Position numbers and translations under genes: made by a program. Source: an uncultured Aliiroseovarius sp. (GTDB taxonomy: Bacteria; Pseudomonadota; Alphaproteobacteria; Rhodobacterales; Rhodobacteraceae). Taken from it: DNA of 64,000 bases. The stretch spans positions 62,001-126,000 of the forward strand of contig NZ_CANLNB010000001.1 of assembly GCF_947492455.1 (NCBI RefSeq), given 5' to 3'. Under the pieces are notes generated by a model. It saw nothing but the letters and a program-made list of their open reading frames with translations. It was not told where the DNA came from and ran no database searches. Below are positions 6,803 to 51,632 of this stretch, in pieces (the stretch's first letter is position 1; every line of letters starts with the position of its first letter).

Positions 6803-6839
6803 CTTATCCTCCTTCGCCCGTCTCCCCGACGGGTGGGTT

Positions 6840-7022
6840 GCGTGTGGGCATGGCAGGTCTCCTGGCTATGCGGGTCGAAGCGCGCCGCCGCCTTCCCGAC
6901 CCGAAGATCAGTGGCGCTGGCGGGCGCTCTCCGCTTACAGTCGCGGGGGCGGCTGCACCATCAAACCCCGGATTGGGTCGTCCCCGGTGCATTCCCTTTT
7001 GTCCCATTGGGAACCATGCAGA
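6840..7022 (-). promoter_or_regulatory. Cobalamin (adenosylcobalamin) riboswitch
   Basis: The minus strand contains the classic elements in order: GGTGCAGCCGCCCCCGCGAC (the G-C-rich core near 6952), TGTAAGCGGAGAG, CCACTG, GGGAAGGCGG, and the B12 box AGCCAGGAGACCTGCC at 6852-6867. It ends about 40 bases before cobW. The family senses adenosylcobalamin and switches off expression when the cofactor is plentiful. Here it should control cobW, the GNAT gene and probably cobN. Boundaries are approximate because I cannot fold the RNA. The second B12 locus at 12.5-14.7 kb has no such element. Confidence 0.95.
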
Positions 7023-7127
7023 ACGTCTTTGCCGTGCAAGGGGGCAAAGGGTCAAGATCGAAACCGACCTTGGACGGGGGAATGGCGGCACGGGAATCCC
7101 GCCCAAACGGCACCAAATGCAATATCT

Positions 7128-31630: not shown

Positions 31631-32251
31631 ATGACCCGTCTTCTTCCTGGCGTAATCGCCATGGCCGCCATCGTCGTGGCCTCAAACATTCTGGTGCAAT
31701 TCCTGTTCGGCAACTGGCTGACCTGGGGCGCCTTCACCTACCCGCTTGCTTTCCTTGTCACCGACGTGATGAACCGCGTCTACGGTGTGTCCGCGGCGCG
31801 TAAGGTGGTTCTGGTCGGCTTCATCACCGGCGTGATCTGCAGCTTCATCGGCACCCAAATCATGGGCGAGTTCGGTCCGCTTGTGACCCTGCGCATCGCT
31901 ATGGGCTCGGGCCTTGCCTTCCTGACCGCACAGCTGCTGGACGTCGCGATCTTTGACCGCCTGCGCGAAGGCCGTTGGTGGCGCGCGCCGGTTGTCTCGA
32001 CCCTGATCGGCAGCTCGGTGGACACCGCGATCTTCTTCACCATCGCCTTCTCGGGCACGCTGACCTTCCTTGAACCCGCTAATGACGTCAGCTGGGCGGG
32101 CGAGGTTTTGCCGCTTCTGGGCGCAGGTCCGATGGCCCCGCTGTGGGTGTCTTTGGCGGTTGCTGACTGGATGGTGAAACTGGCCCTTGCCCTGCTGGCA
32201 TTGGTGCCGTTCCGCGTCTTGGTCACAAAACTTTCACCAAATCCTGCGTGA
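31631..32251 (+). CDS. Queuosine precursor transporter YhhQ family
   Basis: The protein has 206 residues and about six membrane spans. The conserved WGAFTYPLAFLVTDVMNRVYG, quoted here in part as TYPLAFLVTDVMNR, and GSSVDTAIFFTIAF are family signatures. YhhQ imports preQ0/preQ1 for queuosine tRNA modification. The ATG at 31631 opens MTRLLPGVIAM; the longer frame from 31541 adds non-membrane sequence in the leader and is less likely. The 115-base leader has no preQ1 riboswitch that I can recognise. Confidence 0.88.
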   Translation: MTRLLPGVIAMAAIVVASNILVQFLFGNWLTWGAFTYPLAFLVTDVMNRVYGVSAARKVVLVGFITGVICSFIGTQIMGEFGPLVTLRIAMGSGLAFLTAQLLDVAIFDRLREGRWWRAPVVSTLIGSSVDTAIFFTIAFSGTLTFLEPANDVSWAGEVLPLLGAGPMAPLWVSLAVADWMVKLALALLALVPFRVLVTKLSPNPA

Positions 32252-32319
32252 AAAGTTTTGACAAACGCAAAATATGTGGCACGCTCCTAGATATAGAAAC
32301 AGCGAGAAAGGAGGTGTCC

Positions 32320-32361
32320 ATGTCAAGAGATACAACGGAGCGAGGTGCCGGGACAATCTAG
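32320..32361 (+). CDS. Thirteen-codon leader peptide candidate
   Basis: ATG at 32320 with the very strong Shine-Dalgarno GGAGG five bases before it reads MSRDTTERGAGTI and stops with TAG at 32359. It has no amino-acid run of the type seen in classical attenuators. The quality of the ribosome site is the reason to list it. Confidence 0.5.
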   Translation: MSRDTTERGAGTI

Positions 32362-32445
32362 ATCGCGACGTTTCGGGGCAGCCCCCGGAACGGAACGCGG
32401 GCCGAATTGACCCAGGTCTAACCGGTCCCACCTCCTACATTCTCG

Positions 32446-32475
32446 AAAGGGTCGTCCTGCTGGGCGGCCCTTTTT
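32446..32475 (+). terminator. Intrinsic terminator at the end of the arfB leader
   Basis: The stem AAAGGGTCG / CGGCCCTTT (32446-32454 and 32465-32473, one G-U pair) is followed by a T-run to 32475. It lies 46 bases upstream of arfB, so it either ends a small RNA or attenuates arfB. Confidence 0.85.
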
Positions 32476-32521
32476 CGTTGCGCCCATTCCCGTCCCCGTC
32501 TCAATTCGCTACGGTGCCCCC

Positions 32522-32941
32522 ATGATCCGCGTGAATGACGATATCACCCTGAAAGATTGGGAGCTGAGCGAGAGCTTTTCGCGTTCCTCTGGTCCCGGCG
32601 GGCAGAACGTGAACAAGGTCTCGACCGCCGTCGAGTTGCGTTTCGAGGCCGCCCGTTCGCCCCATCTGACGCAAGCGGTGAAAGCACGTCTGAAGCGGAT
32701 CGCCGGGCGCAAATGGGCGCAGGACGGTGCCATCACCATCCGGGTCGAGGACACAAGAAGCCAAGCCCGCAACCGCGAGATCGCCGCCGAACGTCTGGCC
32801 GAGATGATCCGCAAAGCGCTGGTCGCGCCCAAGCGGCGCATTCCCACCAAACCAACGAAGGGATCCCAGCGCCGTCGCATGGACGCCAAAACCAAGCGCG
32901 GGCAGGTCAAAGCGCTGCGCGGGCGGGTCACCGACGACTGA
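32522..32941 (+). CDS. arfB: Alternative ribosome-rescue factor ArfB (peptidyl-tRNA hydrolase)
   Basis: The 139-residue protein carries the release-factor GGQ motif in RSSGPGGQNVNKVSTAVELR and a basic C-terminal tail (KRRIPTKPTKGSQRRRMDAK) that enters the mRNA channel. ArfB hydrolyses peptidyl-tRNA on ribosomes stalled without a stop codon, a backup for tmRNA. The ATG at 32522 begins MIRVNDDITLKDWELSE. It sits directly downstream of a terminated leader with a strong ribosome-binding short ORF, which makes ribosome-state regulation plausible. Confidence 0.94.
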   Translation: MIRVNDDITLKDWELSESFSRSSGPGGQNVNKVSTAVELRFEAARSPHLTQAVKARLKRIAGRKWAQDGAITIRVEDTRSQARNREIAAERLAEMIRKALVAPKRRIPTKPTKGSQRRRMDAKTKRGQVKALRGRVTDD

Positions 32942-51555: not shown

Positions 51556-51632
51556 GCTCTGGTAGCTCAGCTGGATAGAGTACTTGACTACGAATCAAGG
51601 GGTCGGGGGTTCGAATCCTCCCCAGAGCGCCA
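51556..51632 (+). tRNA. tRNA-Arg (anticodon ACG)
   Basis: The acceptor stem is GCTCTGG / CCAGAGC, the D arm contains AGCTCAGCTGGATAGAG, and the anticodon stem CTTGA / TCAAG closes loop CTACGAA (anticodon ACG). The T loop is TTCGAAT within GGGGG/CCTCC, the discriminator is G, and CCA is encoded. Length is 77 bases. Adenosine 34 would be edited to inosine by TadA. It stands alone. Confidence 0.97.

Follow-up and report, generated by a model that had tools for sequence, protein, structure and literature searches.

A small RNA gene that looks like a divergent and hitherto unrecognised relative of the CC2171 sRNA lies between a queT-like gene and arfB in a 64,000-nucleotide stretch of DNA (the window) from an uncultured Aliiroseovarius sp. 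(contig NZ_CANLNB010000001.1). With moderate confidence, we view this element as an independently transcribed and terminated gene, related to CC2171 and built like a tiny mRNA, in which ribosome docking and passage would be what is selected. Comparison among relatives shows a conserved gene with a conserved structure, an open reading frame, complementarity to the 16S rRNA and a kinship with CC2171. From 5' to 3' the RNA would carry an extended SD, a start codon, a short ORF, a hairpin, a fold-back strand and a terminator (Table 1). Read from sequence, this is best seen as a putative autonomous ribosome-docking small mRNA, or a dual-function sRNA, whose Rhodobacteraceae form would lock its own SD. 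In the literature searched, so far as its available text goes, we found neither a function for CC2171 nor a description of a CC2171-type reading frame with a 16S-complementary site. What is new here is the recognition of such a frame and such a site in a CC2171-like RNA, which supplies testable parts (the SD, the start codon, the frame and the fold-back strand) in Caulobacter and Rhodobacter. The CC2171-like RNA is also extended to nearly all the sampled Rhodobacteraceae and to part of the other alphaproteobacterial families, and the tempting idea that it controls arfB is removed as unsupported.

Table 1. Features of the small RNA locus and its neighbours (window coordinates)
Feature	Position	Strand	Details
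queT-like queuosine precursor transporter gene	31631..32251	+	TIGR00697 above its cut-off; upstream of the RNA
Candidate promoter of the RNA	32258..32285	+	TTGACA 32258-32263, 16 nt, CACGCT 32280-32285; predicted start site
Small RNA gene, CC2171-like	32295..32475	+	R2 covariance model 138.2 bits, full length; fold z -4.06
Extended SD AGAAAGGAGGTG	32305..32316	+	complement of the 16S 3' tail
13-codon ORF, MSRDTTERGAGTI	32320..32361 (including stop)	+	predicted; 18 codons in most family sequences
Long-range helix (helix 4)	32348..32425	+	CCGG 32348-32351 / CCGG 32422-32425; 97.9% of cells paired, two-sided changes in 3/4 pairs
Hairpin, loop CAGC (helix 7)	32369..32392	+	10 pairs; two-sided changes in 5/8 pairs
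Fold-back strand masking the SD	32429..32445	+	anti-SD CACCTCCT 32429-32436 plus TTCTCG 32440-32445
Intrinsic terminator (helix 9)	32446..32475	+	stem 32446-32457 / 32462-32473, T run to 32475; two-sided changes in 11/11 pairs
-10-like box TACGGT of arfB	32510..32515	+	
arfB	32522..32941	+	NF006718 ArfB above its cut-off

The element is single-copy in the 3.09-Mb genome, and its computed fold (-82.8 kcal/mol) is more stable than that of shuffled sequences (-64.07 +/- 4.61), none of 200 being as low. Neither its promoter nor its terminator was reported by a simple consensus scan, so the transcript ends given here are predictions; the terminator was missed because part of its T run sits inside the stem, and the RNA probably begins a few bases 5' of the start in Table 1. 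In 171 sequences a TTGAC-like block located about 45-50 nt 5' of the SD is moderately conserved (at most 1.05 bits per column) and the -10 region weakly so (about 0.4 bits). The distance from the RNA to queT is nearly constant within the genus and that to arfB is variable; in 154 of 167 family loci queT is found on the 5' side of the RNA at a distance of 400 nt or less. A 9-nt perfect inverted repeat (CAAAACTTT/AAAGTTTTG, 32226-32260) spans the end of queT, and its second arm touches the likely -35 box.

A preliminary description of this DNA had noted a 12-base SD complementary to the usual 16S tail, and both its coordinates and its complementarity were verified against the 3' end of the genome's own 16S, which reads GGCTGGATCACCTCCTTTCT. 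The 12-base sequence occurs only twice in the genome, at this locus and opposite the 16S 3' end; the reversed control is absent. Across the family the complement 5' of the start codon extends over 12-18 nt, many relatives having the 18-nt form AGAAAGGAGGTGATCCAG. For the window sequence, pairing of the 16S tail with the SD was computed at -25.4 kcal/mol against an opening cost of 13.0; with the Aliiroseovarius 16S tail the corresponding medians are -29.7 and 8.2 kcal/mol in 142 other Rhodobacteraceae sequences, and -29.7 and 4.9 kcal/mol in 47 sequences of other families. These energies, which ignore kinetics and ribosome structure, suggest that a free 30S subunit could open the RNA, since the pairing energy exceeds the cost of opening.

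The 13-codon ORF that had been named in the window is present, and a start codon stands at the expected place in all 169 family sequences (GTG in 134, ATG in 29 and TTG in 6); its first base can thus be A, G or T, and the TG that follows is invariant. The frame has 18 codons in 139/169 of these sequences and 13 codons in 25/169, the shorter form being found in Aliiroseovarius and at a handful of other loci; the remaining five have 17, 20, 20, 24 and 25 codons. The stop position is maintained through three different codons (TAG 89, TGA 49, TAA 31), and none of 60 column shuffles was without internal stops in the frame. These frame counts, and the count for codons 12-15 given below, exclude loci L132, L133, L179 and L200, and the comparison behind the SD and ORF forms leaves out 16 of 109 loci that its anchor pattern missed. 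The loci that we name, among the matches listed, and the motif loci were found by patterns containing part of the start region, and hence they provide no independent test of the start codon; the matches of the R1 covariance model do. In the other families, 54 loci picked by a pattern that includes the start codon have frames of 18-56 codons, with 43 of the 54 at 22-26.

The constancy of this frame bears on the first alternative, that of a purely non-coding, base-pairing sRNA whose SD-like 5' part binds the 16S rRNA or other targets and whose ORF is incidental. Rfam files CC2171 as an sRNA, the structure is strongly conserved, no peptide selection rises above column shuffles and, in the available text of PMC4117421, ribosome profiling finds most Caulobacter ncRNA regions untranslated. 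Nevertheless, the start codon changes in its first base yet keeps its TG, the stop is held in place by three different codons, and 164 of the 169 frames have either 18 or 13 codons, and we consider a non-coding RNA rather unlikely. According to the same text of PMC4117421, two of the ncRNAs predicted earlier in Caulobacter do undergo translation, and the accessible portion of PMC10117765 places 33% of 54 new Sinorhizobium sORFs on annotated sRNAs. The preliminary description had itself offered an independent sRNA as its second possibility, and that part is supported. Its idea that such an RNA mimics the 16S tail has to be turned around: the RNA is complementary to the tail and has an internal copy of the anti-SD that is able to mask the SD.

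The next alternative, a small mRNA that acts through its peptide, is improbable. Codon 7 is Glu in all 139 of the 18-codon frames and codon 12 is Thr in 136 of them, and peptides of the MSHCH- or MSSE-/EQP- type are found in other families (where the site taken for L276 was the wrong one); however, the recurrent codons are also fixed at their third base, and there is no resemblance between the peptides of different families. The true frame outperforms both shifted frames when synonymous changes are compared. The synonymous share itself, 0.21 against 0.18 +/- 0.05 in column shuffles, is equalled or exceeded in 18 of 60 shuffles; because this value falls inside the shuffle range, peptide selection lacks support, and we rejected it as the main constraint. 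The sequences suggest that the reading frame is maintained and that the peptide is not clearly so.

The folding of the RNA was compared in an alignment of 71 sequences, in which 91.0% of the cells are paired and 25 of the 46 pairs have changed on both sides. On each of five measures the real alignment stands above all 500 shuffles, and the paired share drops to 39-60% when the alignment is slid by 1-3 columns. Within the genus the first ~65 nt are near-invariant and the middle of the RNA is variable. The hairpin previously called a perfect 10-bp one does have ten pairs, but "perfect" is too strong, one of them being G-U; in the 18-codon relatives the stop codon lies within the 5' arm of its counterpart. 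The anti-SD copy noted earlier was confirmed as an exact 8-nt complement of 32309-32316, and the terminator, 46 nt before the arfB ATG, was verified in both its stem and its T run.

Two results on the fold-back strand count against our preferred reading of a ribosome-docking small mRNA. The SD:anti-SD helix (helix 1) is maintained in 98.6% of cells and varies by G-U exchange only, which is to be expected if the 16S rRNA holds the SD fixed. In the Rhodobacteraceae the fold-back pairing is in slight excess over swapped sequences (15.73 vs 15.36 +/- 0.07; 163 of 169 sequences), the difference being small because the SD hardly varies. Codons 12-15 of the ORF also pair with a downstream strand, and here a sequence's own strand scores 13.54 vs 10.55 +/- 0.26 for swapped ones (79 of 169 sequences, those having all the anchors). 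In other families the RNA is closed near the ORF start, for example by CATTGTC/GACAATG (13.43 vs 12.10 +/- 0.33; 47 of 54 loci). In most of the Rhodobacteraceae loci examined, this closing helix is replaced by the SD:anti-SD lock. That most other families do not have this lock also counts against our reading.

As the Rhodobacteraceae fold-back strand is an anti-SD, the RNA would have two forms: a closed one, in which this strand hides the SD and the start codon, and an open one, in which the RNA is docked on the 30S subunit. Docking, and the passage of the ribosome over the ORF, would open helices and so might alter the stability or the pairing of the RNA. Selection would then act on docking and passage, not on a specific peptide or on arfB control in cis. 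We infer the transcription and translation of the RNA, its two states and any output it may have. A more specific and quite tentative proposal, to which we give little weight, is that the RNA reads the state of the free 30S pool: a perfect complement of the single-stranded 16S tail would capture the 30S subunit, and initiation on the mini-ORF, not the peptide, would switch the RNA between its closed form and an open form acting in trans. On such a scheme, the frame would stay open across families and the peptide would drift.

The distribution of the RNA was followed with two covariance models, R1 (built from 21 genus sequences) and R2 (built from 71 sequences). A DNA search found the element in all 21 genomes of the genus, taken here to be Aliiroseovarius. 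Of 394 family genomes, 337 are matched by R1 at E<=0.01; under strict filters the other 57 have no match. An order sample of 390 genomes, all of them Rhodobacteraceae, gave R2 matches in 383 at E<=0.001; about a dozen of these matches are weaker than 1e-10, and some of them may be terminators alone. In a sample of the class, R2 matches 70 of 385 genomes, five of them Rhodobacteraceae, and several of the weak matches are short; no match was obtained in 315 of the 385. The SD-plus-start motif AAAGGAGGTGNTCNNRTGTC is found in 78 of the 385 class genomes (two of them Rhodobacteraceae) and its reversed control in none, and it is absent from 307; it occurs once per genome in 77 of the 78. With these tools, therefore, most of the sampled genomes outside the family are unmatched, and the family genomes missed by R1 and the class genomes missed by R2 and by the motif weigh against the preferred reading. 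The one genome with two copies of the motif, from another family (G673), has them at C1:805113 and C1:2922049.

CC2171 was reportedly discovered in Caulobacter by Landt and others. The window region has no match in Rfam at gathering scores, and those obtained up to E 10 are all at chance level; in particular, the CC2171 family (RF01867) has no match at the locus up to E 10 and its curated 75 bits are not reached, and at E<=1 it does not match L044, a 13-codon type like that of the window. By Rfam's own threshold, the window copy is no member of RF01867. Common descent is thus argued through a chain of relatives, and the two unmatched copies tell against our preferred reading. Among 20 relatives compared with Rfam (19 loci of other families and L179), 17 match RF01867 at E<=0.5 and two are above its cut-off. 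At E<=0.001, RF01867 matches 48 of 240 class genomes, seven of them above the cut-off, and 48 of 61 family genomes, none of the 61 above 75 bits; where they were compared (for example G022, G045 and G070), its matches fall at the places found by R1. In the RF01867 alignments of L080 and L206, SD lies on SD and the GAAAGGAGGUGAUCC-start is in register; the window form of this conserved 5' segment is two bases shorter (AGAAAGGAGGTGTCCATG). A link to an Rfam family unrelated to arfB, which the preliminary description had counted against its own proposal, was found in this way, via relatives rather than from the window copy directly. The best match of RF01867 in the genome of the window (C8:1938-1986, minus strand, 16.9 bits) is opposite the 16S 3' end, and matches of this kind might give rise to false CC2171 annotations.

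The Rhodobacteraceae relatives share with CC2171 an SD-bearing 5' end, CAACAA..GAAAGGAGGUGAUCCAGUGUC, in register, a 3' terminator and a similar length. They differ in that their copies score below 75 bits, and that of the window, with its 13 codons, is unmatched; moreover, the Rhodobacteraceae RNA locks its SD by an anti-SD in place of the pairing at the ORF start. In the available text of PMC5596092 a Mesorhizobium transcript of 215 nt is assigned to RF01867, and that of PMC11701678 counts RF01867 among the families that gain one covarying pair. A comparison of how such an RNA might work is offered by rnTrpL/RcsR1, the leader-peptide-encoding trp attenuator sRNA of Sinorhizobium (RF02552), which according to the accessible parts of PMC7143759, PMC5977203 and PMC10117765 is likewise a small, terminated RNA with a mini-ORF and acts in trans; in contrast, its ORF is leaderless and stands in front of the trp genes. 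Identity with RcsR1/rnTrpL was rejected, a weak match being obtained for L179 alone (30.8 bits, cut-off 60). Also rejected were SorY (15.9 bits, cut-off 111) and ftsZ-DE (16.8 bits, cut-off 72.2), both at a chance-level E of 1.4 with a terminator-like stem in common, and 6S RNA, for which the genome's sole RF00013 candidate (C3:589548-589701, 41 bits) is below its cut-off and none is at this locus.

The position of the RNA had led the preliminary description to propose an attenuator in cis, in which occupancy of the short ORF by ribosomes sets SD masking and termination and so ties ArfB to the state of the ribosome. The ORF, SD, anti-SD and terminator that it calls for are all present, and arfB lies downstream in 141 of 167 family loci (109 within 260 nt, 23 at 260-500 nt and nine farther), so that 132 have it within 500 nt. 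Against this, in all 21 genus genomes a TANNNT box stands exactly 6 nt 5' of the arfB ATG and an SD is absent, as is characteristic of leaderless genes that have a promoter of their own; by its sequence, arfB is probably leaderless and separately transcribed. Further, arfB was not found downstream in 26 of the 167 loci, in 22 of which the sequence there runs to 1.2 kb or more; among the matches listed, loci labelled Paracoccus, Thioclava dalianensis and Defluviimonas denitrificans belong to these 26 (the counts for arfB and queT cover the strand of the RNA only, and L132, L133, L179, L200, L136 and L162 are excluded from the arfB tests and neighbour counts). GGGCCG, GACCC and CCCAG, which had been suggested to pair with the terminator, are indeed present, but as antiterminator strands they receive no clear support from a swap test on 148 sequences: over swapped sequences, pairing with the 5' arm shows no excess (7.84 vs 7.92 +/- 0.12) and pairing with the 3' arm a marginal one (7.80 vs 7.61 +/- 0.08). 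With a leaderless-type arfB promoter, loci that lack arfB, no clear antiterminator, a variable distance to arfB, and an SD lock and terminator that coexist in the computed fold, the attenuator is very unlikely.

Between the RNA and arfB, some loci have sequences of their own. A palindrome, TTGGATCCAA, perhaps an operator, stands between the -35 and -10 regions of arfB in L016, L017, L018, L021, L022 and L025-L028, and in L025-L028 tandem CTAGTTTT repeats are inserted between the RNA terminator and arfB (the stretch in L028 is partly N). Elsewhere in the window there are a cobalamin riboswitch (6835-7033, minus strand, 100.6 bits) and a tRNA gene (51556-51629, 64.1 bits).
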